A stretch of DNA of 23,275 nucleotides, taken from IMG/VR virus record IMGVR_UViG_3300032265_000040, positions 1 through 23,275 of that record; one strand, written 5' to 3'. This stretch comes from a virus. This document shows, piece by piece, positions 9,441 through 23,275 of this stretch. A program made the translations under genes and the position numbers. The notes beneath the pieces are model-generated. The model ran no database searches, was not told the DNA's origin, and saw only the letters and a program-made list of their open reading frames with translations. The stretch's first letter is position 1. The number at the start of each line of letters is the position of its first letter.

Positions 9441-10217
9441 TTAGTTCATGAACATTTCTAGTGGCGCACCGTACTTGTCACCGATTTCTGCGTGTAACGC
9501 ATCAATCTCTGTTTTGGCTTCTTCATAAATCTTATCACCATTCAACATGACACCACCTGGTAATTGAATGCCACTAAACTTTTTAAGATTGTTACCCCAT
9601 GAACGCTTGATGAGTGCTGTTGCATACTCTTTTAACCAACGATCATTCCATGCTTGTGTGTAAACATCAGGATCAATCACAGCATAACATTCTGCAATCA
9701 CGGTTGTACCAACTGGTGCTTCACTATGTCCCCAACCCCAATCAATATACAATCTTTGCATGTGTCTTTGGAATCTAATAGGAACTTCACCAGAAAATAG
9801 TTGTTCTAACATACGTAAGTGTTGCAACGTCATCGTATAGTTGATGTATGATGCGGAGGTGAAGTCATACAATTCATTTAAACGAAGTTGATATCTCAAA
9901 TCAAACATATTAACTTGAGATTGTGAATCGGAAACGGGAAATATTCTGGTTATACCAGCAATCTGTAGTACATTATTTGATGAATCTTTGGCCTGAGATA
10001 TATCTAAGTATCTATTATTAACATCTGTTTGGTCTATTTTTTTGATATAATAGACTTTTTGTAGGCCATCAAAATGGTAGTCCTGCCAGTATTGAAGTGC
10101 ATCATCAATACGATCTTCCACCTGATCGTCATCAACGTTGATTTCGATTACTGGAAATCCTAATCTACGTAGGCAGTAATCTTTAAAAGCCGTTCTTGTT
10201 ATGATTGTTTTCGCCAT
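9441..10217 (-). CDS. 13: Head completion / neck protein, T4 gp13-like
   Basis: Neck protein that binds directly beneath the portal after packaging and recruits gp14. It has 258 residues (T4 gp13 309). The start is strikingly conserved: FKDYCLRRLGFPVIEINVDD, continuing DDQVEDRIDDALQYWQDYHFDG (residues about 11-53), nearly identical to T4 gp13. Later NELYDFTSASYINYTMTLQH and QRHMQRLYIDWGWG also fit the family. A late-promoter motif lies 20 bases upstream of the ATG. A strong Shine-Dalgarno sequence, AGGGGGA, lies about 5 bases before the ATG, inside a potential hairpin described separately. It is the first gene of the conserved core after the fibre island, as gene 13 follows wac in T4. Confidence 0.96.
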   Translation of the reverse strand: MAKTIITRTAFKDYCLRRLGFPVIEINVDDDQVEDRIDDALQYWQDYHFDGLQKVYYIKKIDQTDVNNRYLDISQAKDSSNNVLQIAGITRIFPVSDSQSQVNMFDLRYQLRLNELYDFTSASYINYTMTLQHLRMLEQLFSGEVPIRFQRHMQRLYIDWGWGHSEAPVGTTVIAECYAVIDPDVYTQAWNDRWLKEYATALIKRSWGNNLKKFSGIQLPGGVMLNGDKIYEEAKTEIDALHAEIGDKYGAPLEMFMN

Positions 10218-10267: not shown

Positions 10268-11959
10268 TTAGAATGTCATACTTCCAGAACTAGTGAATTG
10301 ATACACTGTATAACCACCTGCGGTAGTTACAACCGGAGAGCCAGTACATGTTGCTGTAAATCCAGCAGTATGTCGAACAATTACTACACCAGAACCACCT
10401 GCACCTGAAAGTGCAGCCGTGCCCAAGCCACCTCCACCGCCACCAGTATTATTAAATCCATCTATTTTGGAACTAGCGATATTATTAGTTTGTCCTGGGT
10501 TTGCGCCGCCACCACCTGCTCCACCATAACCAGCGGCACTACCTGATCCTCCTCCAGAATAGTATCTACCTGTGCTAGTGATTGCTACGCCTGTGGTTGT
10601 GCCCGTAGAGTTTGTATTCATGTGATATGTACCTACACCACCTAAACCTGAACCTAATGCAACTATATAAGCGCCTGCTGGAATATTTGTTCCAGTAACT
10701 TGTGTACCAACATTAATTACTCCAGTATTAACTGCGGTTATAGTTAACATTCCGTTTCCACTGGTCAATGATCCTGTTCCTCCAAAAGCAATTGTTACAT
10801 TACTTTTTACGCCAATACCACCGAAACCGACAATAGATGCTTGGCCGCCTTGGCCACCTGCACCGCCGCCACCCGAACCATTACCGTTACTATCATTTGT
10901 ACCACAATCATATCCTTGGCCGGCAGTACCTAAACCTTGCACGACTGGACTACCCATAATTTGTGCAGCACCACCGCCACAACCACCGTTACCAGCACCT
11001 TCTGTGTCATATCGGCGAGGAGTTACACCGGAACTATTTGGTCCGCCAGCGCCACCACCAAGTGACATAATCGTGGTTATACCACTACCAGAAATGGATG
11101 TATTTGATCCTTTAAATCCAGTAACTTCTTCACCAGTAACACCTGCACCACCTGCACCAATTGTAATTGTGTATGATGAACCTGAAGCGTTGTTTGCTAT
11201 AGCAGTTTCAGCGCTTGTACCTCGGCCAGAAGCTTCACCTGTAATTGAAGAACGATATCCGCCGGCGCCGCCGCCACCAGAACCAGAATAACCACCGCCT
11301 GAACCGCCACCACCAACTACTATGAACTGTAATGTTGAAGGTGTTAATACCACATCGATACTAAATGCTCGAGCAACAGTTTGATTTTGTCCGTCTGATA
11401 CTGTAATTGTGAAATTATATGTGGTTGCACTACCAATAGTTGGTGCAGTACCAGTGATTGCACCTGTACTAGTATTCAAACTTAATCCAGATGGCAAAGA
11501 ACCGCTTGTTAAAGCGTATGATAAAGGTGCATCACCCGTTGCAGCTACTGATAAACTGATACCGGTTGCTGCGCTACCTATCGATCCTATATTACCCGCA
11601 GAAGTTGTCCAGGCAGGAGGAGCACTATATGTTATGCCATTTGGTACCAGACCAACACTACCATCAGTATTATAAACAAATAAATTATATGATCCAACAC
11701 TTTTTGCTGGTACTGTGACTAACAAACTGGTTGAATTTACAAATGTGGTATTACTACAAATTGTTGTATCTACAAACACATTTGCACCACTAGCAAATCC
11801 TGAACCTGTCAAAGTTATAACATTACCGCCGGTTGTGTCAACAGCTGTTGCAGTACCCGAAAGAACTACTGCTGAAACTTTTATTCCACCACCGCCAGCT
11901 GAACCTATTGAAGCCAGTGTTGCTGAATTTATATTATTTGTTTTAATTCTTGTTGTCAT
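10268..11959 (-). CDS. Glycine-rich tail fibre/adhesin A with IPT-like and Ig-like domains
   Basis: 563 residues. Domain order: N-terminal anchor segment TTRIKTNNINSATLASIG (2-19), an IPT/TIG-like beta-sandwich (about 27-111; ITLTGSGFASGANVFVDTT), a putative Ig/cadherin-like domain (about 113-204; LPSGLSLNTSTGAITGTAP is typical of He_PIG-type domains), then a glycine-rich domain from FIVVGGGGSGG (212) to GGSGVVIVRH (521-530). A cassette at about 388-466 is shared with genes B, C and F. The last ~25 residues (TGSPVVTTAGGYTVYQFTSS) are common to all six paralogues. Such glycine-rich tips recall phage receptor-binding adhesins, for example the polyglycine-helix gp38 of T-even phages, so a role in host recognition is inferred. 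It starts 3 bases after the 117-residue gene. Confidence 0.8.
   Translation of the reverse strand: MTTRIKTNNINSATLASIGSAGGGGIKVSAVVLSGTATAVDTTGGNVITLTGSGFASGANVFVDTTICSNTTFVNSTSLLVTVPAKSVGSYNLFVYNTDGSVGLVPNGITYSAPPAWTTSAGNIGSIGSAATGISLSVAATGDAPLSYALTSGSLPSGLSLNTSTGAITGTAPTIGSATTYNFTITVSDGQNQTVARAFSIDVVLTPSTLQFIVVGGGGSGGGYSGSGGGGAGGYRSSITGEASGRGTSAETAIANNASGSSYTITIGAGGAGVTGEEVTGFKGSNTSISGSGITTIMSLGGGAGGPNSSGVTPRRYDTEGAGNGGCGGGAAQIMGSPVVQGLGTAGQGYDCGTNDSNGNGSGGGGAGGQGGQASIVGFGGIGVKSNVTIAFGGTGSLTSGNGMLTITAVNTGVINVGTQVTGTNIPAGAYIVALGSGLGGVGTYHMNTNSTGTTTGVAITSTGRYYSGGGSGSAAGYGGAGGGGANPGQTNNIASSKIDGFNNTGGGGGGLGTAALSGAGGSGVVIVRHTAGFTATCTGSPVVTTAGGYTVYQFTSSGSMTF
10562..10798 (-). repeat. Shared cassette inside adhesin A
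   Basis: Residues about 388-466 of gene A (core VINVGTQVTGTNIPAGAYIV, then GTYHMN and TSTGRYYSGG). It is the most divergent of four copies; the others are in B, C and F. It occupies the slot where D and E have only a short linker. Confidence 0.75.
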
Positions 11960-11962
11960 TTA

Positions 11963-12316
11963 TTATGCTGTAAATTCAGCCCATGAAAGAGTTTCTTCAT
12001 TCCATGTATATTGTTTATCACCAGTTGGCATTGCAACTGGTGCATTCCACTGACATGTACTTTCATCCAATACCCAACTATTGAAGGGTTTAGGTGGAAT
12101 AAAAGCATCACGCATAGCATCATAAGTATAACCGATACCAGCATAATTTTTTCTTAATGGTGTACCACCCAATCTGTGTACACCGCCATATGTGTTGTAA
12201 CTTGTTTGTATAAAGGATCTTGGTTCTCCAAACAAACCAGTATTAACAACATCTTGTTCTATCACTAGAACTTGTGTTACAATACTGTTACTATCTATTT
12301 GTGCAAAATGTGCCAT
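11963..12316 (-). CDS. Conserved small phage protein (YTWNEETLSW family), function unknown
   Basis: 117 residues. I recognise the pattern as a small protein common in the structural regions of marine T4-like phages but know no established function. Visible features: the start MAHFAQIDSNSIVTQVLVIE, the central SFIQTSYNTYGGVHRLGGTP followed by LRKNYAGIGYTYDAMRDAFI, then PPKPFNSWVLDESTCQWNAP and the end YTWNEETLSWAEF. It is rich in aromatic residues and has no signal peptide or membrane segment. GGAGAAAT lies a few bases before the ATG as a good ribosome-binding site. An exact TATAAATA lies 48 bases upstream, inside the end of gene B. Lying between two large fibre genes, it may be a small virion component or a fibre-assembly factor (inference). 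Confidence 0.8.
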   Translation of the reverse strand: MAHFAQIDSNSIVTQVLVIEQDVVNTGLFGEPRSFIQTSYNTYGGVHRLGGTPLRKNYAGIGYTYDAMRDAFIPPKPFNSWVLDESTCQWNAPVAMPTGDKQYTWNEETLSWAEFTA

Positions 12317-12335
12317 ATTATTTCTCCATTAAATA

Positions 12336-14021
12336 TTAAAATGTTATACTGCCTGATGAGGTGTATTTATATACTCTTAGTCCACCCGAAACTAATACGC
12401 TTGGACTGCCAGTAGTTGTATTTGCTGCTGGATATGCACTTGAATAACTGAGTAATACTACTCCAGAACCACCTGAGGTTGAGCCACCTGATGATGAGTA
12501 CCCCCGACCACCGCCACCGCCACCTGTATTAGTTGCTCCGGCTACTGGTAGTGCTGCTATGATTCTTCCGTCAGCTCCGCCATTTCCGCCGCCGCCACGA
12601 CCACCATATCCAAAATAAGCTAAGTTGGAGTTGTAAGTAGTGCCACCACCGCCACCTGCAAAGTATCTTCCTGAACTTGTAATTGATACACCAGTAGTAG
12701 TTGCGGTTGCAACTGCATTCATTGTATATGTGCCTAAACCACCTGTGCCTGTGCCTAATGCGATGATATAAGCGCCTGCTGGAATTCCTGTACCAGTAAC
12801 TTGTGTGCCTACTTGAATTTCTCCAGTTGTTGCTGCAGAAATAGTCAATACGTTTGACGAAGCAATATTTGCTGTACCTGCAAATGCAGCAGTAATAGTC
12901 AATAATTTACCTGGACCACCTAATCCGCCGGCATTACTATTTGCAACAGTATCAACACCTGTTCCATCAGCACCGCCACCACCACCGCCAGTTGCATAAG
13001 TACCAGATCCTGAATCAGCAATACCACCTCTATTACCAAATCCACCGCTGGCACTACTAGGTTGCAATGCATTTCCATAAGTGGTCATATTTGCACCATT
13101 CCATGCTGCACCACCGCCACTACCGCCATTTGCGCCACTAACATATCCACCATTATAATATCCACCAGTCCCGCCACCAATAGCAGTTAGTGTAGTCATA
13201 CCTGAACCCGACATGACTGTATTTGATCCGTTAGTATTATCTGCAGCTCCACCGGCTCCTACCGTGATTGTATAAGTTGTTCCTGTTGTTATGCTTAATG
13301 CATTAGTTATAAGACCGCCTGCACCACCGCCTGCTCCAGCAATATTAGGTGAAGAAGAACCTGCTGCGCCACCACCAATGATTGCATAATCAAGTGAACT
13401 TAATGAGACAACTACAGTAATACTAAATGCTCTGTCCGTACCTTGGCCGTTGGCATTAGTTGCAGTTAATGTAAAATTATATACAGTTAAACTACCTACA
13501 CTAGGAACACTACCTGTTATTGCGCCAGTACTACTATTCAAACTTAATCCAGTTGGCAAACTGCTACCGGATTTAACTGAGTAAGTAACATCAGTACTGC
13601 TTGTTGCAGCTACTGAAAAACTAAGACCGGTTGCTCCAGTGCCGGCAGATCCTATACTACCCGATGCGGTTGTCCAAGTTGGTGCAACACTAAACATTAT
13701 ACCATTAGGTATCATACCAAATCCGCCGTCAGTGTTGTAAACAAATAAGTTATATGAACCAGCGCTTACTGATGCGGTTGTAAATGTTAGGCTTGTTGAA
13801 TTTACAAATGTCGTATTACAACGAGTTGTATTTACGAACACGTTTGCACCACTAGCAAATCCTGAACCAGTTACCGTAACAGTTTCTCCACCTGCTGGCG
13901 AACCGGCCAATACACCGCCAGGATAAGTTATAGATGTAACTTTTATTCCACCGCCACCACCTGAACCTATTGAAGCCAGTGTTGTTGAATCTATATTATT
14001 TGTTTTGATTCTTGTTGTCAT
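12336..14021 (-). CDS. Glycine-rich tail fibre/adhesin B with IPT-like and Ig-like domains
   Basis: 561 residues, same architecture as gene A. Anchor TTRIKTNNIDSTTLASIG (2-19), IPT/TIG-like domain (about 27-111; VTVTGSGFASGANVFVNTT), Ig/cadherin-like domain (about 113-204; LPTGLSLNSSTGAITGSVP), glycine-rich domain from YAIIGGGAAG (212) to GGSGVVLLSY, with the shared cassette at about 373-453. The C-terminal tail ends RVYKYTSSGSITF. The first 56 bases of the gene differ from those of gene A at only 3 positions, indicating recent duplication or conversion, whereas the glycine-rich parts differ much more. No strong ribosome-binding site is seen. An exact late-promoter octamer lies about 41 bases upstream. 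Likely an alternative or additional receptor-binding fibre. Confidence 0.8.
   Translation of the reverse strand: MTTRIKTNNIDSTTLASIGSGGGGGIKVTSITYPGGVLAGSPAGGETVTVTGSGFASGANVFVNTTRCNTTFVNSTSLTFTTASVSAGSYNLFVYNTDGGFGMIPNGIMFSVAPTWTTASGSIGSAGTGATGLSFSVAATSSTDVTYSVKSGSSLPTGLSLNSSTGAITGSVPSVGSLTVYNFTLTATNANGQGTDRAFSITVVVSLSSLDYAIIGGGAAGSSSPNIAGAGGGAGGLITNALSITTGTTYTITVGAGGAADNTNGSNTVMSGSGMTTLTAIGGGTGGYYNGGYVSGANGGSGGGAAWNGANMTTYGNALQPSSASGGFGNRGGIADSGSGTYATGGGGGGADGTGVDTVANSNAGGLGGPGKLLTITAAFAGTANIASSNVLTISAATTGEIQVGTQVTGTGIPAGAYIIALGTGTGGLGTYTMNAVATATTTGVSITSSGRYFAGGGGGTTYNSNLAYFGYGGRGGGGNGGADGRIIAALPVAGATNTGGGGGGRGYSSSGGSTSGGSGVVLLSYSSAYPAANTTTGSPSVLVSGGLRVYKYTSSGSITF
12364..12371 (-). promoter_or_regulatory. 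Late-promoter octamer TATAAATA inside the 3' end of gene B
   Basis: An exact TATAAATA is made by the codons for V-Y-K-Y near the end of gene B, 48 bases before the ATG of the 117-residue gene. Position and exact match suit a late promoter for that gene. Because it is also coding sequence, it could be coincidental. Confidence 0.5.
12663..12905 (-). repeat. Shared cassette inside adhesin B
   Basis: Residues about 373-453 (EIQVGTQVTGTGIPAGAYII at 401-420; SSGRYFAGGGGG follows). A 38-base stretch, 12784-12821, is identical to 22408-22445 in gene F. Confidence 0.85.
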
Positions 14022-14061
14022 ATTTTTATCTGGTTTTGCGTTATGCCGGTGTGATAAACGT

Positions 14062-14069
14062 TATTTATA
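14062..14069 (-). promoter_or_regulatory. Candidate late promoter for gene B (TATAAATA)
   Basis: An exact TATAAATA begins 1 base after the TAG stop of gene C and 41 bases before the ATG of gene B, in a 49-base gap. Exact match and intergenic location make this one of the best late promoters in the window. Confidence 0.75.
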
Positions 14070-14070
14070 T

Positions 14071-15171
14071 CTAGAATGTTATGCTGCCAGACGAAGTAAA
14101 TTTATAAATTCTGTATCCACCAGCTACTGTAACTGTTGGTGATCCTGTTGTACTTGCTGCGGCCGAATAGGTATCAGCATATCTAAAGATTACTACTCCG
14201 GAACCGCCATTTCCGCCGGCATAACCACCGCCGTTATAGTTTCCAGAACCGGCTCCACCGCCAGTATTAGTAGCTCCTGGAAATCCAGTATTAGTGGAAG
14301 TATTTGCACCTGCTCCACCGCCGCCTGCGCCGCCTAAACCTGGTGTGGTGTATCCAGGAGCTGTATATCCACCTCCACCACCACCGCCTGCAAAGTATCT
14401 ACCTGAACTGGTTATTGCTACACCTGTATTAGTGGCAGTAGCTGCAGCACTCATTATATATGTACCTGTTCCACCAGTACCTGTACCTAATGATACAATG
14501 AATGTACCAGTAGGAATTCCTGTACCAGTAACTTGTGTACCTACTTGAATTTCACCTGCTGAAACTGCTGTAATATTTAATGTAGTAGTTGAATTGAGTG
14601 TCGCCGTACCCACAAAAGAAGTTGTGATTGTTTGTAATGATCCAATACCACCTGTACCTGCTGTAGATGTACTGACAGCATCTTGTCCTACAGCACCGGC
14701 TCCGCCACCGCCGCCACCGCAGGCATATGCTGTGCCGCCACCACGATTACCTTGGCCAGCAGTTCCTGTACCGTATCCGGTTGCGCCGCCACTTCGGCCA
14801 GCTCCGCCACCAGAGCCGCCAACGCCACCTTGTCCGCCTGGAGATCCGCCGTTACCGCCTGCAATTGCAGTAAGTGAGCTTCCTGTTCCAGTAACTGATG
14901 AGTTTATACCAACAGTTCCTACACCATTCTCACTAGTTGCACCGGTACCACCGCCACCAATCGTAACTGTAAATGATGTTCCAAGAAGAAAAGATTTGGT
15001 ACCAGATAACAATCCGCCAGCACCAGCACCGCCACCACCGCCGTCAGAACCACCGCCACCACCAGCAACTACTAGATAACTAGCTGAAACAGTTATTGAA
15101 GGATTATCAATACTAGTACTATTAAAATTCTTAGCACTAAGTTTTTGCGAACTATGGATTCTTAAAGACAT
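14071..15171 (-). CDS. Glycine-rich tail fibre/adhesin C (no IPT or Ig domain)
   Basis: 366 residues. A short N-terminal segment (LRIHSSQKLSAKNFNSTSID, 3-22) leads almost directly into the glycine-rich domain at SYLVVAGGGGG (31-41), so the IPT- and Ig-like domains of A and B are absent. The shared cassette occupies about 178-259 (EIQVGTQVTGTGIPTGTFIV). The glycine-rich region ends GGSGVVIFRYAD and is followed by the common tail TTGSPTVTVAGGYRIYKFTS. Long Gly runs (GGGGGGAG and similar) alternate with short variable loops. The ATG overlaps the stop of the 109-residue gene by one base (TAATG), implying coupled translation. Inferred role: receptor-binding fibre tip. Confidence 0.78.
   Translation of the reverse strand: MSLRIHSSQKLSAKNFNSTSIDNPSITVSASYLVVAGGGGGSDGGGGGAGAGGLLSGTKSFLLGTSFTVTIGGGGTGATSENGVGTVGINSSVTGTGSSLTAIAGGNGGSPGGQGGVGGSGGGAGRSGGATGYGTGTAGQGNRGGGTAYACGGGGGGAGAVGQDAVSTSTAGTGGIGSLQTITTSFVGTATLNSTTTLNITAVSAGEIQVGTQVTGTGIPTGTFIVSLGTGTGGTGTYIMSAAATATNTGVAITSSGRYFAGGGGGGGYTAPGYTTPGLGGAGGGGAGANTSTNTGFPGATNTGGGAGSGNYNGGGYAGGNGGSGVVIFRYADTYSAAASTTGSPTVTVAGGYRIYKFTSSGSITF
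14395..14640 (-). repeat. Shared cassette inside adhesin C
   Basis: Residues about 178-259, closest to the copy in gene F at both DNA and protein level (TGTGIPTGTFI, MSAAAT, TNTGVAITSSGRYFAGG in both). Confidence 0.85.
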
Positions 15172-15500
15172 TAACTAATCTCCGAACCAAACAAATTAAA
15201 ACTCAAAGTACTTGTACCTGCATACACTGTAATTACATCAGTAGTTGCTAATGTAATACCAATTGTTAAACTTATAGAATCAAGCGCAGGAATTGCAGTA
15301 TTATAAGCAATATAGTGCTTTGGATCTAATGTTGCGCCTGCTGGTCTAATTGCAACCCTAAATGAGTCCGCAGAAGCACTTTGATTACAAATATTAATAG
15401 TTGAAACTACTGTACTTGTACTTGCAGGTACTGTATATAATGTGGTCGCTGTTGTTGCAGCTGGGTTAGATTGCCCTAAAACTTTGTATGTTGTTGCCAT
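15171..15500 (-). CDS. Small conserved marine-phage structural protein, function unknown
   Basis: 109 residues. I recognise the pattern as frequent in marine myovirus structural regions without a defined role: MATTYKVLGQSNPAATTATT at the start, LYTVPASTSTVVSTINICNQ, RVAIRPAGATLDPKHYIAYN in the middle, then SISLTIGITLATTDVITVYA and STLSFNLFGSEIS at the end. The composition (Thr, Ser, Val, Ile) and alternating pattern suggest a single all-beta domain. A very strong AAGGAGAA lies before the ATG, implying high expression. It follows the 1004-residue fibre gene by 9 bases and overlaps gene C, so it may be a virion decoration or a partner of the neighbouring fibres (inference). Confidence 0.82.
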   Translation of the reverse strand: MATTYKVLGQSNPAATTATTLYTVPASTSTVVSTINICNQSASADSFRVAIRPAGATLDPKHYIAYNTAIPALDSISLTIGITLATTDVITVYAGTSTLSFNLFGSEIS

Positions 15501-15509
15501 GTATTCTCC

Positions 15510-18500
15510 TTATGCGCCCATTAACAAGAATGGACTTATTGATGTGCTGCCAGTTGATGCAGAATTTGCAGCAGCAAAAGCAGCGTTTGCCTGTGTTCTG
15601 GCGAAAGTATCTGTGCTAGCACCACCTCCTCCGCCACTACTACTAAAGGTTATTACTTCAACATTCGCACCACTTTCAAATGTACTGTCGAATGTAACAA
15701 CATTACCTGTAACTGTATATGTAGTTTTTAATTGTGTAATACCATCAACAACTGGAATTATATAATCTCCACTTGTTGGTGTTGAACTTAAAGTGAATGT
15801 TGTTGTTCCACCATTAGCAGTAAATACGTCAGAAGAAACTGTTATTCCGGATGAATTTGCCTTAGCAAAGGCCGCATTTGCTTGAGCTCTTGCCCAAGAA
15901 TCTACACTATTCGTATTGGCAGCATTGAAAGCAGCATTCGCTGCAGCAAAAGCAGCGTTTGCTTGTGGCCATACATAATTATTGGATTGGTCAAATACTG
16001 CATTAGCTCTTAAAAATGCACCATTAGCAAAACTAGCTGCTGAGTTAGCTGTTACAAATGCACCGTTAGCAAATGCTGCTGTAGTGTTTTGAGAACTATA
16101 AGATGCATTGGCTGTTACAAAAGCTGCATTAGCGAATGATGCTGTTGTATTTTGAGAATTATAAGATGCATTGGCTGTTACGAAAGCGGCATTGGCAAAT
16201 GAAGCACCACTATTAGCAGTTACGAATGCACCGTTAGCAAAACTAGCACCAGAATTTGCACTATTAAATGCAGAGTTTACATAAGGTAATAAATCAATAC
16301 CTTTAATTGTTATGGTTGTTGATTTTAGGTTTGCATTTAGTGTTGCAGCCTTAAATGATGCATCGTTAATGTCAATATTATTGTTTGCACCAACCTCAGG
16401 TGTATAACCATCAAACACGTACCATTCTTTAGTACCTGAATCTCGAATAAGACCCGTGTGTGCGTTTGTTCCGTTATTGTAGTGACCAGCAAAACCAATG
16501 TCTAATATATCAGATGCATAGTTTCCGATACCCAAAATAAACATGGTATCATTAGCAACAATTTGAGATGCACTAACAGAGAATGTATTTCCTAATATTG
16601 ACAGGTTACCTGTAATAGAAACATCACCAGAAATTGTACCACCAGATGTATTGAATTTTAAATTGGCAGTAGTAAAAGCACCGTTAGCAAATGATGCTGC
16701 TGAATTGGCAGTTACAAATGATGCATTAGCAAATGATGCGCCAGAGTTTGCTTTGTCATAAGAATTATTTGCTTGAGCTCTTGCCCATGGATCAGTATTA
16801 GCTGTGTACTGCATAGTACCATCAGCAAATGTAATTGCATTTGCACCGGCACCAGAACCTGTAACTGTTAACGCACCGCTTGTTAGCGTACCGCTTATTG
16901 TTGCATTAGCATTTATTGTTAAATCACCAGTTAGTGTACCACCAGCTAATGGTAATGCATTATTTGCTTTGGTGAAAGCACTGTTAGCAAATGAACCTGC
17001 TGAGTTGGCTTTATCAAATGCTGCTGCAGCAAATGCACCACCAGAAGAAGCATTAGCTGCAGCATAAGCAGCATTTGCAGCTGCGTAGGCAGCATTTGCT
17101 TGTGGCCAAACATAGGTATTAGATTGGCCAAATACAGCATTAGCTCTATCAAAAGCACCATTAGCAAATGATCCACTAGAATTTGCCTTGTCATAAGCAG
17201 TATTTGCTTGTGTTCTTACCCAAGTATCGGTAGAATTGTTTGCTTGTAAAAAAGCGGCATTAGCTGTTGCATATGCGGAGTTTGCTCTATCAAAAGCAGA
17301 GTTTGAATTGTCAGTAACTACAGGAACTTTACTTATTAATTCACGAATTTGTATTACTGAATTACTGTTTGGTGCTTCAACAAATGTTAGAGTAGTTCCT
17401 GATACACTATAATCAACTCCTGGATTTTGTGTAATACCATTGTCAAATACAAGAATACTATTGGCTGTTGTGTTGGCCGATATTGTAAATGTGGTTGTAT
17501 TTCCATCACCTGTAAAATTTCTGCTTGTATAATAAATTGACGCACTATTACTGGCGGTAATAATTGTACTGTAAGCTAAATTGGCTGTTGTAAATGCAGC
17601 ATTAGCTGTATTTCTTGCATATGAATCTGTACTAGAAGCACCAGTATTCGCAGCTGCATAAGCAGCATTAGCTCTATCAAAAGCACCGTTAGCAAATGAT
17701 GCTGCGTTATTGGCTTGTACAAAAGCACCATTAGCAAACGATGCACCAGTATTTGCTTGGTCGTAACCAGAATTGGCCCTTAAAAATGATCCATTAGCAA
17801 AAGATGCTGCCGAATTTGCCGCAGCAAAAGCACCATTAGCAAAAGATGCACCTGAGTTTGCTTGGTCGTAACCAGAATTGGCTCTTAAAAATGCTCCGTT
17901 AGCAAAAATAGCTGCAGCATTGGCTGTTACAAAAGCACCATTAGAAAAACTAGATGCCAAATTAGCTTGTACGAAAGCACCATTAGCAAATGATGCTGCT
18001 GAATTAGATGTTACAAAAGCACCGTTAGCAAAACTAGCCGCCGAATTGGCTTGTACAAATGCACCATTGGCGAAACTTGAACCAGTATTTGCTACACCAT
18101 AACTAGCATTAGCTCTATCAAAAGCACCATTAGCAAATGATGATGCGTTATTAGCCTGTACAAAGGCACCATTGGCAAAAGATGAACCAGTATTTGCTAC
18201 ACCATAACTAGCATTAGCTCTATCAAAAGCACCATTAGCAAAAGATGCTGATGAATTGGCTTGTGGCCAAACATAGGTATTAGATTGGCTGAATACAGCA
18301 TTAGCTCTATCAAAAGCACCATTGGCAAATGATCCACTAGAGTTGGCTGTATTATATGCGTTATTTGCTTGTGTTCTTACCCATGTATCGGTAGAGTTGT
18401 TTGCTTGTGCATATGCAGCATTTGCACGGTCAAATGCACCATTGGCTGTTCCATATGCAGAAGGAACTAAAGAAGAAAAGTCTTTAGTCGAATCTAATCT

Positions 18501-18524
18501 TTGTGGGGTTACTTTTGTTGACAT
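15510..18524 (-). CDS. Long repeat tail fibre (Ala/Asn 14-residue repeats with beta inserts), 1004 aa
   Basis: Anchor TKVTPQRLDSTKDFSSLVPS (3-22, shared with gene D). Residues about 23-322 are repeats of the type SFANGAFVTANSAA (14 residues, two alternating heptads), interrupted by YVWPQAN motifs. A beta domain (about 328-402, NFTGDGNTTTFTISANTTAN) follows, then more repeats (405-525), LPLAGGTLTGDLTI (524-537, a tail-fibre motif), repeats (about 580-625), a larger beta region (about 626-745, SIRDSG-like loops and EWYVFDGYTP), repeats (750-895), a second beta domain resembling the first (about 898-960) and a last short repeat. The repeats probably form a long shaft with globular knobs. Modest ribosome-binding site (AAGG). 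Two late-promoter-like octamers lie in the 135-base leader. Likely a long tail fibre or whisker component; attachment point unknown. Confidence 0.8.
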   Translation of the reverse strand: MSTKVTPQRLDSTKDFSSLVPSAYGTANGAFDRANAAYAQANNSTDTWVRTQANNAYNTANSSGSFANGAFDRANAVFSQSNTYVWPQANSSASFANGAFDRANASYGVANTGSSFANGAFVQANNASSFANGAFDRANASYGVANTGSSFANGAFVQANSAASFANGAFVTSNSAASFANGAFVQANLASSFSNGAFVTANAAAIFANGAFLRANSGYDQANSGASFANGAFAAANSAASFANGSFLRANSGYDQANTGASFANGAFVQANNAASFANGAFDRANAAYAAANTGASSTDSYARNTANAAFTTANLAYSTIITASNSASIYYTSRNFTGDGNTTTFTISANTTANSILVFDNGITQNPGVDYSVSGTTLTFVEAPNSNSVIQIRELISKVPVVTDNSNSAFDRANSAYATANAAFLQANNSTDTWVRTQANTAYDKANSSGSFANGAFDRANAVFGQSNTYVWPQANAAYAAANAAYAAANASSGGAFAAAAFDKANSAGSFANSAFTKANNALPLAGGTLTGDLTINANATISGTLTSGALTVTGSGAGANAITFADGTMQYTANTDPWARAQANNSYDKANSGASFANASFVTANSAASFANGAFTTANLKFNTSGGTISGDVSITGNLSILGNTFSVSASQIVANDTMFILGIGNYASDILDIGFAGHYNNGTNAHTGLIRDSGTKEWYVFDGYTPEVGANNNIDINDASFKAATLNANLKSTTITIKGIDLLPYVNSAFNSANSGASFANGAFVTANSGASFANAAFVTANASYNSQNTTASFANAAFVTANASYSSQNTTAAFANGAFVTANSAASFANGAFLRANAVFDQSNNYVWPQANAAFAAANAAFNAANTNSVDSWARAQANAAFAKANSSGITVSSDVFTANGGTTTFTLSSTPTSGDYIIPVVDGITQLKTTYTVTGNVVTFDSTFESGANVEVITFSSSGGGGGASTDTFARTQANAAFAAANSASTGSTSISPFLLMGA
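15840..16277 (-). repeat. Ala/Asn 14-residue repeats, C-terminal block of the long fibre
   Basis: Residues about 750-895 of the long fibre. 14-residue units such as SFANGAFVTANSGA, with degenerate 42-base DNA units, plus one YVWPQAN motif. Confidence 0.85.
16950..17312 (-). repeat. Ala/Asn repeats, middle block of the long fibre
   Basis: Residues about 405-525, including 7-residue units AAYAAAN in tandem, WVRTQANTAYDKAN and a YVWPQAN motif. Confidence 0.8.
17565..18461 (-). repeat. Ala/Asn 14-residue repeats, N-terminal block of the long fibre
   Basis: Residues about 22-320: some twenty consecutive units of the SFANGAF / V-x-A-N-x-x-A type, encoded by imperfect 42-base repeats. Homologous to 19992-20741 in gene D. 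Confidence 0.88.
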
Positions 18525-18544
18525 TTATTATAGCCTTTTTATAC

Positions 18545-18552
18545 TATTTATT
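18545..18552 (-). promoter_or_regulatory. Proximal late-promoter-like octamer before the long fibre
   Basis: AATAAATA, 7 of 8 bases of the T4 late motif, ends 20 bases before the ATG of the 1004-residue gene, so it would give a leader of only about 15 bases. Weaker than the distal CATAAATA. Confidence 0.35.
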
Positions 18553-18569
18553 TGGTTGAGTTTGCCTGC

Positions 18570-18589
18570 AAAGTTATAATCATAACTTT
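18570..18589 (-). promoter_or_regulatory. Perfect 8-bp inverted repeat in the leader of the long fibre gene
   Basis: AAAGTTAT and ATAACTTT flank a 4-base loop (GATT on the minus strand). There is no T-tract after it on the minus strand, so it is not a standard terminator. It lies between the distal and proximal promoter-like octamers. Possible mRNA-stabilising hairpin or protein-binding site. Confidence 0.5.
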
Positions 18590-18630
18590 TTATGATATTC
18601 ATTTGATTAAAGCTGTACTGCTTACACAAT

Positions 18631-18638
18631 TATTTATG
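18631..18638 (-). promoter_or_regulatory. Candidate late promoter for the long fibre gene (CATAAATA)
   Basis: CATAAATA in the 135-base gap after gene D, identical to the octamers before gp18 and gp13. It would give a leader of about 100 bases containing the inverted repeat at 18570-18589. Confidence 0.62.
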
Positions 18639-18659
18639 TTTAGTTGAATATCAAAAATC

Positions 18660-20804
18660 TTAGAATAATATACTACCTGAACTAGTCCATTTATATACTC
18701 TATACCCACCGGCAGTTGTAACTGTTGGTGAACCAGTAGTTGATGTTGCTAACGCAAATGCATCAGAGTAACGAATAATCACTACACCGGAACCACCTGC
18801 GCCGCCGGTATTTCCAGTACTATTACCTGCGCCACCGCCACCGCCACCAGTGTTTACAGTGCCACCAGTACCATTAGCATTTCCACCACCGCCTGCGCCG
18901 CCACCATAAGTAGCACTACCTGCGGTTGCACCTTGAGCAGTACCGCCGCCGCCTCCGCCGCCTGCATAATCAACAGACGAACCTGAAATATTACTTGCTC
19001 TACCTATACCACCAGATCCTGAAGTACTAGCAATAGTACCACCGGTTTGTCCTATGCCACCGGCTCCGCCACCGCCGCCGCCTGGATAAGGAGAGCTTGT
19101 GTTGTTTCCGCCGCCTGCATATCCTTCTACTGGAGTATATCCGCCTAAATTACCTGCGCCGCCAGCGTAACCACTTGATGAAGCCGGTGCACCTGCACCA
19201 GAACCACCAGAACCACCAGTTGCTCCTAATGTACCTCTACCTCCGCCCGAACTTGTTGTTGTGCCGAATACACTATCAGAACCTGCCGAAGCATTAGAAG
19301 CTGTAGCTCCAGCGCCGCCTCCACCAACTGTAACTGGAATTGATATTCCTGAGCTTACGGCAAGTCCGGTTGCAGTTCTATAACCACCTGCGCCACCGCC
19401 TGAACCGCCGTTACCTCCACCAGTACCACCACCGCCACCGGCGACTATCAAGTATTCTACTGTTGTTGGTGCACCAGGTACATAATACATGCCAGCTGGT
19501 TTTACAGCAAAACTACCATCTGTATTATAAACATATAGATGATATGATCCTGATGTTTTTGCGGGACTAGTAAATGTTAAACTTGTTGCGCTTACATATG
19601 TAGTGGCACAATTAATAGTATCAACAAAAACGGTTGCACCACTATTAAATCCGCTTCCAGTAACTGTAATTGTTTCACTACCTGCGGGTGTACCACCATT
19701 ACCACTATTATTAGGATAAGTTAAAGATGTAATTTTTGGACTTGCAGTAACCACAGGAACACTAGTTATTAATTCACGTACCTGAATATTTACACCATTT
19801 GCAGGTGAGGTAATAAATGTTAAATTATTACCTGATACACTATAATCTGTGTCAGGTCTTTGTAAGATACCATTTTCAGCCACAAGAATTGAATTTGCTG
19901 TTGTATTCGTAGAGATTGTGAATGTGTTTGTATTACCATTGCCAGTGAATATTCTTGATAAGTAATAAATTGATGCGCTATTGCCGCTACTGCCGGTATT
20001 GGCTGCATTATAAGCAGCATTAGCTCTATCAAAAGCACCGTTAGCAAAGTTAGCTGCTGAATTTGCTTGTGGCCAAACATAGTTATTAGATTGACTGAAT
20101 ACAGCATTGGCTGTTACAAAAGCACCATTGGCAAATGATGCTGCTGAATTTGCTTGTGGCCAAACATAGTTATTAGATTGGCTGAATACAGCATTAGCTC
20201 TATCAAAAGCACCATTGGCAAATGATGATGCGTTATTGGCTTGTACAAAAGCACCATTAGCAAAACTTGCAGCAGAATTTGCTACACCATAACCAGAATT
20301 GGCTCTTAAAAATGATCCATTAGCAAAAGATGCTGTAGCGTTAGCTGTTACAAAAGCACCATTAGCAAAACTAGATGCTAAGTTGGCTGCAACAAATGCA
20401 CCATTAGAAAAAGATGCTGATGAATTAGCTTGTACAAATGCACCATTGGCGAAACTTGAACCAGTATTTGCTACACCATAACTAGCATTAGCTCTATCAA
20501 AAGCACCATTAGCAAATGATGCTGTAGCGTTAGCAGTTACAAAAGCACCGTTAGCAAAAGATGCTGATGAATTAGCTTGTACAAATGCACCATTAGCAAA
20601 CGATGCACCAGAATTTGCCTTATCATAAGAATTATTTGCCTGAGTTCTTACCCAAGTATCTGTACTAGAACCACCTGTATTTGCCTGCAAGAACGCAGCA
20701 TTAGCTTGTGCAAGTGCAGCATTAGCTGTTCCGTATGCAGAAGGAACTAAAGAAGAAAAGTCTTTAGTTGGATCTAATCTTGATGGACCTAATTTTGTTG
20801 GCAT
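18660..20804 (-). CDS. Chimeric fibre D: repeat shaft fused to IPT-like and glycine-rich adhesin
   Basis: 714 residues combining parts of two neighbouring gene types. Anchor TKLGPSRLDPTKDFSSLVPS (3-22) and the Ala/Asn 14-residue repeats (about 23-271, with two YVWPQAN motifs) match the long fibre. A beta domain (about 277-350; IFTGNGNTNTFTISTNTTAN) matches that fibre's 328-402. An IPT/TIG-like domain (about 357-441; ITVTGSGFNSGATVFVDT) and the glycine-rich domain (449 onward; EYLIVAGGGGG) match gene E. The common tail GSPTVTTAGGYRVYKWTSSG closes it. The ~80-residue cassette of A, B, C and F is absent; the slot has only SNISGSSVDYAGG. The ribosome-binding site is weak (AGTGA). Likely a self-contained fibre with shaft and receptor-binding tip. 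Confidence 0.8.
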   Translation of the reverse strand: MPTKLGPSRLDPTKDFSSLVPSAYGTANAALAQANAAFLQANTGGSSTDTWVRTQANNSYDKANSGASFANGAFVQANSSASFANGAFVTANATASFANGAFDRANASYGVANTGSSFANGAFVQANSSASFSNGAFVAANLASSFANGAFVTANATASFANGSFLRANSGYGVANSAASFANGAFVQANNASSFANGAFDRANAVFSQSNNYVWPQANSAASFANGAFVTANAVFSQSNNYVWPQANSAANFANGAFDRANAAYNAANTGSSGNSASIYYLSRIFTGNGNTNTFTISTNTTANSILVAENGILQRPDTDYSVSGNNLTFITSPANGVNIQVRELITSVPVVTASPKITSLTYPNNSGNGGTPAGSETITVTGSGFNSGATVFVDTINCATTYVSATSLTFTSPAKTSGSYHLYVYNTDGSFAVKPAGMYYVPGAPTTVEYLIVAGGGGGTGGGNGGSGGGAGGYRTATGLAVSSGISIPVTVGGGGAGATASNASAGSDSVFGTTTSSGGGRGTLGATGGSGGSGAGAPASSSGYAGGAGNLGGYTPVEGYAGGGNNTSSPYPGGGGGGAGGIGQTGGTIASTSGSGGIGRASNISGSSVDYAGGGGGGGTAQGATAGSATYGGGAGGGGNANGTGGTVNTGGGGGGAGNSTGNTGGAGGSGVVIIRYSDAFALATSTTGSPTVTTAGGYRVYKWTSSGSILF
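19992..20741 (-). repeat. Ala/Asn 14-residue repeats in chimeric fibre D
   Basis: Residues about 22-271 of D, units such as SFANGAFVQANSSA and SFANGAFDRANASY, encoded by imperfect 42-base repeats. A tandem pair of longer units carries FSQSNNYVWPQAN at 207-219 and 237-249. Confidence 0.87.
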
Positions 20805-20816
20805 TAATTATTTCAC

Positions 20817-21959
20817 TTAGAATGTTATTGAACCTGAACTAGTCCATTTGTATACTCTGTACCCACCGGCAGTTGTGATAGTTGGTGAGCCAGTAGTTGA
20901 GGTTGCCAGTGCATATGAATCTGCATAACGAATAATTACAATACCGGAACCACCATTACCGCCGGCTTTGGATGAGGCGCCGCCGCCACCACCGCCGCCA
21001 CCTGTATTAACAGTACCCGCGGTGCCTAATCCTCCCGCACTACCTGCACCACCACCTTCAGTTGCAGTTCCTGGAGTTCCACCACCATATGTTCCGCCGC
21101 CACCACCGCCCGCATATCCTACACTACTTCCAGAAATTGAAGATGTTGTGCCGGTTCCACCAGGACCAGCAGCTGTACTGGTGCCATTACCACCTGCGGC
21201 AGTAGATCCACCACCACCGCCTGCACCGTAATACGGAGCCGCATATGTGGCAGTTCCACCATCATAACCTTGTCTTGCTTGATCCAAATAAGTTGATCCT
21301 GGATAAACGCCCTTGCCGCCGGCGCTAGCTGCGGAACCAGCTCCGCCGCCACCTGAACCACCTGTCTGAGTAGATCCTGCACCAGTGTCGGCACTTACAC
21401 CACCACCACCACCTTTTGAAGTAATAGTGGAGAATACAGAATCACTACCTCTTGGTGGTGCGCCGTATGTTCCTAAAGCTGTAGCTCCTGCTCCAATAGT
21501 AACTGTATATGTACCGGTAGTAACTGTAAAACCATTTGCAGTCAATAAACCACCTGCGCCACCACCACCACCACGTTCATAACCACCGGCGCCTCCGCCT
21601 GCAACAACTAAGTATTCTACTGTTGGTGGAATATATCCCATATATGTAATACCACTGGGTTTTACAGCAAAACTACCATCAGTATTATAAACATATAGAT
21701 GATATGATGAAATACTTTTTGCAGGAGCTGTAAATGTTAAGCTTGTAGAATCTACATATGTAGTTGTACAATTCGTTGTGTCAACATATACAGTTGCATT
21801 TGCATTAAAACCAGAACCAGTGATAGTTAACGTTTCTCCACCTCTTGAATCTGCCGCAACAGTAACTCCAGCATATGATAACGAGGTTATTTTAGCGCCG
21901 CCACCTAAACTGGCTAATGTTGTTGATGATATGTTATCTGATGTTATTTTTAATGTCAT
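20817..21959 (-). CDS. Glycine-rich tail fibre/adhesin E with IPT-like domain
   Basis: 380 residues. Anchor TLKITSDNISSTTLASLGGG (2-21), one IPT/TIG-like domain (about 24-108; LTITGSGFNANATVYVDTT and YHLYVYNTDGSFAVKPSGIT), then a glycine-rich domain from VEYLVVAGGGAGG (114) to GGSGIVIIRYAD, and the common tail ending YRVYKWTSSGSITF. It lacks the Ig-like domain of A and B and the ~80-residue cassette; the slot is filled by SSISGSSVGYAGG. The loop GVYPGSTYLDQARQGYDGG (about 217-235) closely matches one in gene F. Only a weak ribosome-binding site precedes the ATG. It lies 9 bases after gene F and 12 before gene D, so the three are probably co-transcribed. Inferred receptor-binding role. Confidence 0.79.
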   Translation of the reverse strand: MTLKITSDNISSTTLASLGGGAKITSLSYAGVTVAADSRGGETLTITGSGFNANATVYVDTTNCTTTYVDSTSLTFTAPAKSISSYHLYVYNTDGSFAVKPSGITYMGYIPPTVEYLVVAGGGAGGYERGGGGGAGGLLTANGFTVTTGTYTVTIGAGATALGTYGAPPRGSDSVFSTITSKGGGGGVSADTGAGSTQTGGSGGGGAGSAASAGGKGVYPGSTYLDQARQGYDGGTATYAAPYYGAGGGGGSTAAGGNGTSTAAGPGGTGTTSSISGSSVGYAGGGGGGTYGGGTPGTATEGGGAGSAGGLGTAGTVNTGGGGGGGGASSKAGGNGGSGIVIIRYADSYALATSTTGSPTITTAGGYRVYKWTSSGSITF

Positions 21960-21968
21960 ATCGTTCTT

Positions 21969-23117
21969 TTAGAATGTTATGCTGCCAGATGAAGTAAATT
22001 TGTAAACTCTATATCCATCGGCTACTGTAACTGTTGGTGATCCTGTTGTTGCTGATGCGGCTGCATATGAATCTGTATATCGCAGCAAAACTACACCACT
22101 GCCGCCTGTGCCAGTATTTGGTGTATTATTACTTGATCCTCCACCGCCACCGCCTGTATTTGGTGAACCTGCTACTGGACTACCGTTTGGTTCACCACCA
22201 GTTCCGCCGCCACCAGCACCACCCGCACCTGTATATCCTGTTGCAAATCCTGGAGGATACGGAGCACCTCCGCCGCCGCCTGCAAAATATCTTCCTGAAC
22301 TAGTTATTGCTACGCCTGTGTTTGTAACAGTTGCTGCAGCACTCATTACATATGTTCCAGTACTACCTGTTCCAGTACCTAATGCGGTGATAAATGTACC
22401 AGTGGGTATTCCTGTACCAGTAACTTGTGTGCCTACTTGAATTTCACCTGCCGAAACTGCTGATATAGTTAAGGTGTTATTTGAACTAAGTGTTGCTGTA
22501 CCTGCAAAAGCAGTTGTTAATGTAATTAATGCACCTATACCACCTGCGCCGGCATATAGATTACCTTGAGCACCTGCTCCTCCGGCACCACCGCCGCCAC
22601 CACCGCCATGATACCCATCACCACCTCTTGGAGTTGCTCCACCACCATCATAGCCTTGTCTTGGCGCACTTATATATGTTGAACCTGGATAAACACCTGC
22701 TGAACCAAAGGTATTAATTCCACCATCACCGCTAGATGAAGCTGCGCCACCAGAACCGCCTGTGGTACCTATGTAAGTTGCTGCACCTGCAGCAGTTCCG
22801 CCACCACCACCGCCTATCGATGTTACTGTAGTGAATCCAGAACCACTAATACTACTGTTAGCACCTCTTACGCCAATACCCGTAGACCAAGTAGTTGCAC
22901 CAGCACCAACAGTAATTGTATATGTTACTCCGGCAGAAATTGAAACACCGGTTGCTTGTAATAATCCGCCTGCACCACCGCCACCACCAAAGCCGGCTTG
23001 ACCACCTGAACCACCGCCAGCAACTACTAAGTAATCAATTGAACTTGGTGCCACTGGCGCCGGCGCTTTGCCAATTGCGATTCCTCCACCAATTCGAATT
23101 CCTGATCCTATTAACAT
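21969..23117 (-). CDS. Glycine-rich tail fibre/adhesin F (minimal N-terminus)
   Basis: 382 residues. A very short N-terminus (LIGSGIRIGGGIAIGKAPAP, 2-21) leads into the glycine-rich domain at IDYLVVAGGGSGG (27-39), with no IPT or Ig domain. The shared cassette is at about 198-277 (EIQVGTQVTGTGIPTGTFIT at 225-244). The loop GVYPGSTYISAPRQGYDGGG (141-160) parallels gene E. GGSGVVLLRYTD and the common tail GSPTVTVADGYRVYKFTSSG end the protein. It is the first complete gene of the E/D/F group, with AGGA before the ATG and an exact TATAAATA about 33 bases upstream. Like C, it may be only a tip that needs another protein to reach the virion (inference). Confidence 0.79.
   Translation of the reverse strand: MLIGSGIRIGGGIAIGKAPAPVAPSSIDYLVVAGGGSGGQAGFGGGGGAGGLLQATGVSISAGVTYTITVGAGATTWSTGIGVRGANSSISGSGFTTVTSIGGGGGGTAAGAATYIGTTGGSGGAASSSGDGGINTFGSAGVYPGSTYISAPRQGYDGGGATPRGGDGYHGGGGGGGAGGAGAQGNLYAGAGGIGALITLTTAFAGTATLSSNNTLTISAVSAGEIQVGTQVTGTGIPTGTFITALGTGTGSTGTYVMSAAATVTNTGVAITSSGRYFAGGGGGAPYPPGFATGYTGAGGAGGGGTGGEPNGSPVAGSPNTGGGGGGSSNNTPNTGTGGSGVVLLRYTDSYAAASATTGSPTVTVADGYRVYKFTSSGSITF
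22287..22526 (-). repeat. Shared cassette inside adhesin F
   Basis: Residues about 198-277, between GGIGA and YFAGGGGG. Very similar to the copies in B and C, including 38 identical bases with B. Confidence 0.85.
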
Positions 23118-23149: not shown

Positions 23150-23157
23150 TATTTATA
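23150..23157 (-). promoter_or_regulatory. Candidate late promoter for genes F-E-D (TATAAATA)
   Basis: An exact TATAAATA, 33 bases before the ATG of gene F. It has a 20-base near-palindrome ending one base upstream of it. Initiation about 6 bases downstream would give a leader of about 27 bases with AGGA near its end. Confidence 0.75.
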
Positions 23158-23178: not shown

Positions 23179-23192
23179 ATTATCATAAGTTC

Positions 23193-23275
23193 TTAACCGA
23201 GTGTGACATAACCCCATTGGACTGTTTGACTAGACCCACTAGAGTTGTTAATTCCAAAGTCAAATCTATTGGTAG
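23193..23275 (-). CDS. 3' end of an unidentified structural gene (partial)
   Basis: The minus strand from the right edge reads 27 codons in one open frame: TNRFDFGINNSSGSSQ then TVQWGYVTLG, ending at TAA (23193-23195). The other two minus-strand frames offer less: one stops at its second codon, the other gives a low-complexity Leu/Val run. The composition (Ser, Gly, Asn, aromatic beta-type residues) resembles the C-terminus of phage fibre or baseplate proteins, and the position upstream of the fibre genes fits. Which protein it is cannot be told from 27 residues. Confidence 0.6.
   Translation of the reverse strand, partial: TNRFDFGINNSSGSSQTVQWGYVTLG

Follow-up and report, generated by a model that had tools for sequence, protein, structure and literature searches.

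A probable hypervariable host-recognition cluster with an array of glycine-rich fibre or adhesin genes in an aquatic T4-like phage

The window (the whole stretch of 23,275 nucleotides analysed here) carries six glycine-rich genes, A to F, beside the neck genes of an aquatic T4-like phage. We conclude that this locus is very probably the phage's hypervariable host-recognition cluster, occupied here by a series of fibre and adhesin genes whose heads would bind the host receptor. Each glycine-rich gene most likely encodes the distal receptor-binding head of a tail fibre or of a baseplate-attached adhesin carried on the virion. The variable loop tips of these heads would contact the host surface, while N-terminal modules (a docking segment, Ig-like spacers or, in D and R, a shaft of ANGAF repeats) would position them.

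Gene content and modules of the array

The array and its flanking neck gene consist of the following features.

9441..10217, minus strand: gp13-like neck protein, a conserved anchor downstream of the array, adjoining a gp14 recognised by Pfam
10268..11959, minus strand: gene A, 563 aa (PF05345 3e-14, PF21722 1.5e-5)
11963..12316, minus strand: s117 (phrog_7759), between A and B, candidate chaperone for the head of B, which is encoded just upstream
12336..14021, minus strand: gene B, 561 aa, with Pfam domains
14071..15171, minus strand: gene C, 366 aa (PF21722 4.6e-9)
15171..15500, minus strand: s109, small tail-fibre-associated protein (phrog_1276 3e-10; phrog_693, tail fibre, 3e-8)
15510..18524, minus strand: R, 1004 aa, Ala/Asn-rich with ANGAFxxAN repeats (phrog_13173, tail fibre, 7e-12)
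18660..20804, minus strand: gene D, 714 aa (PF21722 1.9e-15, PF01833 6e-9)
20817..21959, minus strand: gene E, 380 aa (PF21722 1.3e-19), modelled with AlphaFold
21969..23117, minus strand: gene F, 382 aa (PF21722 6.7e-15)

The preliminary description had proposed six glycine-rich genes with a common domain and different N-terminal parts, lying directly upstream of gp13. We found all of these reading frames, on the minus strand, at that position, each with one such domain and with N-terminal modules swapped among them. The downstream order gp13-14-15-16-17-18-19 was likewise correct, except that gp15 and gp16 are separated by an additional gene (5779-7518) whose N-terminus is gp9/10-like. Its further claim, that the array stands in place of T4 genes 9-12/wac, is unproven because the contig stops at 23275, a short way upstream of F, and because a gp9/10-type N-terminus is present elsewhere; in addition, a close relative has a weak gp8-like match about 30 kb off on the opposite strand. 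The position of the locus is that of the 'host recognition cluster' published for pelagimyophages and cyanomyophages, a hypervariable island by the neck genes that contains fibres and lectin-like domains and has VrlC as its other boundary (PMC7029224). Like that cluster, the array is a hypervariable island adjoining neck genes in the structural region, but the window has no glycosyltransferases and holds mostly one family of glycine-rich heads.

All six proteins match the Pfam profile PF21722 (Gly_rich_2) at 25.5-71.6 bits against a gathering cut-off of 24.3, so their family resemblance is far beyond chance. The proposed starting motif [V/I]VxGGGxGG was present as described in five of them, while B starts with AIIGGGAAG, and the closing motif GGSG[VI]V was found in all six. 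'Almost invariant' overstates the conservation of the C-terminal tail, as the last 43-45 residues share 56-87% pairwise identity and the one nearly fixed stretch is the terminal [FWY]TSSGS[IM].F. The N-terminal parts had been described as different, and this holds for C and F, which have short unique N-termini ahead of a glycine-rich head with insert and tail, but not for A, B and E, which have in common a short segment MTxxIxxxNI..[ST].TLAS, nor for D, which has its N-terminus and ANGAF-repeat shaft in common with R.

Besides the glycine-rich head, which has both insert and tail in A and B, Pfam recognises TIG-like and He_PIG Ig-like domains in A and B (the TIG-type domain of B being IPT/TIG) and IPT/TIG domains in D and E; the sole addition from NCBIfam was a choice-of-anchor repeat match across IPT domains. 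In D, the N-terminus and shaft are of R type and are joined to IPT/TIG domains and a glycine-rich head. R, whose DNA contains repeat families D1-D9, is probably a fibre shaft, and R-s109-C is probably the split shaft-adaptor-tip counterpart of the single-chain D; the same shaft-s109-tip order occurs in contig L071. The three genes without a glycine-rich domain that are interleaved in the array (s117, s109 and R) had been missed at first reading, as had an insert of 80 residues within the glycine-rich domain that is common to A, B, C and F. A tRNA search found none.

Predicted fold of the heads and a candidate chaperone

Among the six glycine-rich proteins we modelled E alone, as a monomer, and placed the other five heads by sequence similarity. 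Most ten-residue blocks of the head have a pLDDT above 90, with low confidence at the N-terminus and in the IPT domain, and the model predicts a receptor-binding fibre head of TNF-like and glycine-rich type. Such a head would be a TNF-like β-sandwich whose strands extend into stacked glycine-rich loops, as in gp24 of phage Pam3, which together with gp25 forms a solved fibre-chaperone complex with a glycine-rich receptor head (PDB 7YPX, PMC9608196). The Pam3 fibre was the best Foldseek match in the PDB (7ypx_A, E 0.01, prob 0.99), and structural alignment with gp24 gave Z 12.5 over 162 residues at 2.7 Å; both the modest Foldseek E value and the low global TM score (0.28) probably reflect poor placement of the N-terminal part and the different order of the strands. 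A tail-tip protein of Bxb1 also aligned (PDB 9D93, chain Qa; Z 13.0, 169 residues). It is grouped here with the polyglycine 'brush' domains described at the tips of siphovirus tails (PMC13243795), a setting that differs from the T4-like late operon in which the present array lies. The next fold matches were the glycine-rich domains of ALK/LTK (Z about 5). An enzymatic fold was considered and rejected, as enzyme matches were low in Z and confined to accessory β-sandwich parts. Pam3 was not reached by searching PDB sequences with E, with s117, with alignments of either or with an N-type head.

The structural alignment places residues 112-351 of the model onto residues 98-280 of gp24, its C-terminus, and leaves residues 352-380 unmatched. 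In gp24 the closing strands precede the glycine-rich part, whereas here they apparently follow it: the strand motif is C-terminal to the glycine-rich part in all six proteins and in 98 related ORFs, and precedes it in about 10 related ORFs, all of which lack the tail. As a new reading, we take the C-terminal tail to supply, most likely, the strand that precedes the glycine-rich part in Pam3-type heads, moved to the other end of the chain by circular permutation. Further differences are that Pam3 has one fibre gene and the array six, and that the N-terminal modules are unlike. In gp24 an N-terminal helical trimer bundle docks to the baseplate; in the model of E, residues 1-20 have a pLDDT below 50.

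The preliminary description had likened the proteins to T-even gp38-type adhesins, which would be seated on a gp37 fibre. Glycine-rich lattices occur in both, that of S16 gp38 being receptor-binding, and Pam3 gp24 and S16 gp38 are related by DALI (PMC9608196). However, gp38 caps gp37 and has a β-helix middle domain, most of the genes here have N-terminal and spacer modules of their own, Pfam recognised no gp37-like partner in the array, and the S16 gp38 chain was absent among the listed fold matches. The closest relatives found were Pam3 gp24, with its different strand order, and Bxb1, and we regard seating on a gp37 fibre as highly improbable.

A second similarity to Pam3 is the chaperone-like gene adjoining a fibre gene. 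The best PDB match of the s117 model was the Pam3 chaperone gp25, a weak one (Z 5.4, 53 residues, 2.4 Å), and the tail-fibre chaperone complex of Mu came next (Z 2.7); these two were the only chains with Z of at least 2 among the 146 compared. Of 70 members of the s117 family, 60 stand directly after a glycine-rich gene, whereas the figure for other genes is 29 of 409. The Methylophilales phage Melnitz, whose host is H5P1, has three s117-type places and three or more glycine-rich genes. By analogy with gp25, s117 most likely helps the neighbouring head to fold and would represent a newly proposed chaperone family, though the model consists of strands with no helix after residue 26 and lacks the C-terminal helical trimerisation domain that, beside an N-terminal β-sandwich domain, characterises gp25 and Mu Tfa. 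In the array s117 directly follows B only; the other five heads lack a chaperone gene immediately downstream. Our results lead us to consider, tentatively and at somewhat less than even odds, that a widespread Pam3-type head exists in circularly permuted form, with a helix-poor phrog_7759 chaperone and in multi-copy arrays with exchangeable heads.

Expression, exchange and turnover

Late-promoter-like sites stand ahead of three sets of genes and ahead of s117.

23150..23157, minus strand: TATAAATA, ahead of F (unit F-E-D)
18545..18551, minus strand: ATAAATA, ahead of R (unit R-s109-C)
14062..14069, minus strand: TATAAATA, ahead of B (unit B-s117-A)
12364-12371: a further copy of TATAAATA, ahead of s117

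Such sites also occur ahead of gp13, and all eight ATAAATA sites lie on the gene strand, seven of them within 60 nt upstream of genes; sigma-70 promoters and terminators were at chance level. This arrangement suggests, as a new proposal, three expressed units, F-E-D, R-s109-C and B-s117-A. As to whether the proteins are displayed together or kept as a reservoir, these promoter-like sites lean toward expression, and several array proteins may be made simultaneously.

A largely unexpressed or rarely used reservoir, in which virions carry only one or two of the six proteins at a time and the rest act as donors for recombination, would fit the uneven distribution of modules among the copies and the nearly identical N-terminal segments of A and B (78 of their first 84 nt in common), which may mean that A and B compete for one attachment site. 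We nevertheless consider it unlikely, given that all frames are open, that the promoter-like sites head three units and that A and B are maintained in relatives, both at 85% aa identity in L011 and B at 84% in L089. Neither a reverse transcriptase (RVT_1) nor a serine recombinase turned up in the 11 related records searched, part of which are fragments. On these records diversification by a retroelement seems unlikely, as does phase inversion, the inverted repeats being short and imperfect only.

Under the preferred host-recognition reading, the array would diversify as genes duplicate, as copies trade heads, tails and inserts with one another, and as the cassette is replaced in its entirety. 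Besides the near-identity of A and B at their 5′ ends, D/E are 83% and C/F 79% identical over the last 135 nt, against 52-70% for other pairs, which points to mosaic exchange between copies, likewise a new proposal; statistical support for mosaicism among the paralogues is modest (p 0.01-0.1). Turnover of the cassette is evident among relatives. The gp13-like protein is 93-97% identical across five related contigs, and comparison of L010, L011 and L013 with the window reveals a hypervariable region beside conserved flanking neck genes: L010 has gp13, gp14, gp15 and gp17 at 92-95% identity yet a different cassette, while L011 keeps A, s117 and B and differs upstream of B. The whole cassette differs in a relative whose gp13 is 95% identical, and this fast change, together with the Pam3 gp24 and Bxb1 fold matches, supports the adhesin reading put forward earlier.

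Two points would suit a role of the glycine-rich proteins as structural decoration or spacers of the virion that bind no host receptor: Ig-like spacer domains are frequent in phage decoration proteins, and very many viral contigs carry this fold family, attached to N-termini of many kinds. We judge this role distinctly unlikely, since Pam3 gp24 is proposed to bind its receptor through the loop-bearing head (PMC9608196), which is also similar to adhesive 'brush' domains (PMC13243795), divergence between orthologues is highest in the glycine-rich body, and the locus sits in the host-recognition cluster. A point against a role in host recognition comes from Melnitz phages, in which nine genes in the tail-assembly region changed in length while host range stayed the same on the strains tried (PMC9004378).

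Multiplicity of receptor-binding genes and frequency of arrays

Several receptor-binding proteins per phage are also found in the multi-tailspike complexes of Ackermannviridae, which have conserved N-termini and recombine between copies (PMC11414711), but those tailspikes form branched complexes and are not homologous to glycine-rich heads. With glycine-rich arrays it could be asked directly whether such phages display more than one receptor-binding head at the same time. Moreover, long runs of 'hypothetical' glycine-rich ORFs occur in many aquatic phage genomes, and linking these to a solved receptor-binding fold, and phrog_7759 to chaperones, would give names to many host-recognition genes.

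BLAST-based searches with glycine-rich queries returned no match in the phage collection, probably through the low-complexity filter of the protein search; this says nothing of rarity. Contrary to the earlier view that so many copies in one locus is unusual, arrays of glycine-rich genes are common in viral metagenomes: L173, L213, L180, L133/L134 and L019 hold 5-7 glycine-rich ORFs within 8-16 kb, and the 24.7-kb record of L213 contains 11 domain matches.

Gene content of the array

The window, which is a whole IMG/VR virus fragment of 23,275 bases, has on its minus strand a run of T4-type late genes (gp13-like, gp14, gp15, an extra gene, gp16, gp17, gp18, and gp19) and, upstream of gp13, nine further genes: the glycine-rich genes A to F, R (a 1,004-residue repeat protein, probably a fibre shaft), and two small ones, s109 (between R and C) and s117 (between A and B). 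Each of A to F exceeds the PF21722 cut-off with one glycine-rich domain, which confirms the six paralogues of the preliminary description. A and B carry Ig-like extras (TIG-like and He_PIG), D and E also have an IPT/TIG domain, and the N-terminal segment and ANGAF repeats of D are those of R. An 80-residue insert within the glycine-rich domain (approximately IxVGTQVTGTxIPxGxxIxxLGxGxGxxGTYxM) is common to four of the genes and, judged from sequence, appears to be a mobile small domain with no assigned role:

10548-10747, minus strand, insert in gene A
12643-12929, minus strand, insert in gene B
14375-14661, minus strand, insert in gene C
22267-22553, minus strand, insert in gene F

Matches to phrog_21413 overlap the insert in C, F, and the glycine-rich protein of the related contig L010.

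It had been proposed that the array stands in place of T4 genes 9 to 12 and wac. This is unsupported, as the contig ends upstream of F and a gp9/10-type segment lies between gp15 and gp16, at the N terminus of the extra gene (5779-7518; PF07880 just below cut-off; phrog_677 connector). In L012, a record with a 94% identical gp13, the opposite strand carries a weak gp8-like match at a distance of about 30 kb, which suggests that the baseplate genes are not adjacent to the array. A partial gene (23190-23275), truncated by the contig end, finishes just upstream of F, and the cluster extends past the window.

The core of T4-type late promoters is TATAAATA. All eight ATAAATA sites in the window are on the gene strand, and seven precede a gene start by 60 nt or less (F, R, B, s117, gp13, gp18, and gp19), the highest start-proximal count among 21 words of the same composition. 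Their total is not above chance, so the signal is positional only; sites ahead of genes suggest three putative expression units, F-E-D, R-s109-C, and B-s117-A.

A recurrent order is seen in the contigs L071 (2967-3296), L013, and L027, namely, a shaft with ANGAF-type repeats, a small protein of 109 to 120 residues, and a tip gene, glycine-rich or of another type, often with an s117-type gene next; we read this order as a putative exchangeable tip on a common shaft. Genes resembling 2OG-Fe(II) oxygenases adjoin glycine-rich or s117-type genes in L019 (7664-8251), L022 (8913-9509), and L249 (4846-5403), and one such gene is annotated as a 2OG-Fe(II) oxygenase in S-SSM5.

Predicted fold of the glycine-rich head and a candidate chaperone

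An AlphaFold model of E, built with 67 aligned sequences, has a pLDDT above 90 in most ten-residue blocks of the glycine-rich head and poor confidence over residues 1 to 110. Its top Foldseek PDB match is the tail fibre of cyanophage Pam3 (E 0.01, prob 0.99), and structural re-alignment gave Z 13.0 with the Bxb1 tail-tip protein and Z 12.5, over 162 residues at 2.7 A, with the Pam3 fibre, the ALK/LTK glycine-rich domains coming next, well below, at Z about 5. These matches leave the earlier gp38-type label without support. In Pam3 gp24, the receptor-binding fibre, the counterpart part combines a TNF-like sandwich with glycine-rich loops whose tip is hypervariable; it has been proposed as the host-binding part, and the chaperone gp25 assists folding (PMC9608196). 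An adhesin function of the glycine-rich proteins is likely, and the Pam3-type assignment of their heads, predicted for E and extended by sequence to A, B, C, D, and F, is a new contribution of this work.

The alignment spans residues 112 to 351 of the E model and 98 to 280 of gp24, where gp24 ends, so that residues 352 to 380 of E, its C-terminal tail, are extra, while gp24 residues before 98 are unmatched in E. Motif position was scored in 149 complete glycine-rich ORFs: GGYxVYxFTSSGSITF follows the glycine-rich part in 98 ORFs scored as single-domain, while in about ten, including divergent motifs judged by eye, the same motif (YTVHTFTSSGTFT) immediately precedes it and the ORF ends a few residues past GGSGIVIIRY. 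In two-domain ORFs, the motif sits between the domains. From this either-or placement, which would be expected from circular permutation of one fold, we infer such a permutation, likewise new here.

The s117 protein belongs to phrog_7759, a family without assigned function, and the predicted viral structures nearest to it are all uncharacterised. Its model (pLDDT 84) has Pam3 gp25 as a weak top PDB match (E 0.36). Of 146 chains in the re-alignment, two reached Z of at least 2: gp25 scored 5.4, and one chain from the Mu fibre-chaperone complex scored 2.7. Unlike gp25, s117 has no helical C-terminal domain. In the contigs that s117 by itself retrieved, a glycine-rich gene immediately precedes 60 of 70 members of its family and 29 of 409 other genes, a contrast whose p-value is inflated by relatedness. 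Model and gene order thus make s117 a candidate chaperone, which is also a new contribution. In L010, a 137-residue hybrid (9566-9979) matches phrog_7759 in its C-terminal half and not in its N-terminal half; its partner may be a head of another type.

At least three glycine-rich genes, two with an s117-type gene directly after, occur in Methylophilales phage Melnitz-3 (L248, 1917-11058), in a stretch overlapping a region reported variable in Melnitz-4. The host range of Melnitz phages was unchanged on the authors' strains (PMC9004378).

Copy number and turnover among relatives

The array region matches a published feature of pelagi- and cyanomyophage genomes, the host recognition cluster, which adjoins the neck genes within the structural region and forms a hypervariable island (PMC7029224). 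Five to seven glycine-rich ORFs within 8 to 16 kb are found in L173, L213, L180, L133/L134, and L019, and four in nine further viral contigs; the L213 record has 11 glycine-rich domain matches. The copy number, previously considered unusual, is thus ordinary for such clusters. Upstream sequence of about 7.4 kb or more was available for 28 gp13-anchored loci; of these, 17 lack a glycine-rich gene upstream of gp13 and 11 have one to five.

Although gp13, gp14, gp15, and gp17 of L010 are 92 to 95% identical to those of the window, its cassette differs, comprising a giant repeat protein (with repeats common to other phage structural proteins and LamG-like by eye), a shaft, another glycine-rich protein, and the hybrid chaperone candidate. 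In L011, A, s117, and B are retained at 85 to 88%, and a different glycine-rich gene and an s117 copy lie upstream. When orthologues are compared, conservation at four-fold synonymous sites is lower in the glycine-rich body than elsewhere (B versus L011, 62 of 116 versus 132 of 168, p 1e-5; p 0.005 without glycine codons), a contrast weaker in A (p 0.001; p 0.06 without glycine codons). Between the paralogues of the window, the glycine-rich bodies are near saturation, the first 84 bases of A and B are identical at 78 positions, and the last 135 bases agree at 83% in D/E and 79% in C/F, against 52 to 70% in other pairs, mosaic tests that are modest taken alone. Putative exchange of heads, tails, and N termini explains these patterns best.

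The extra gene between gp15 and gp16 (5779-7518) gives weak beta-propeller matches. Since it is only 55% identical to its L010 counterpart, against 92 to 95% for neighbouring genes, it is probably a second variable surface gene.
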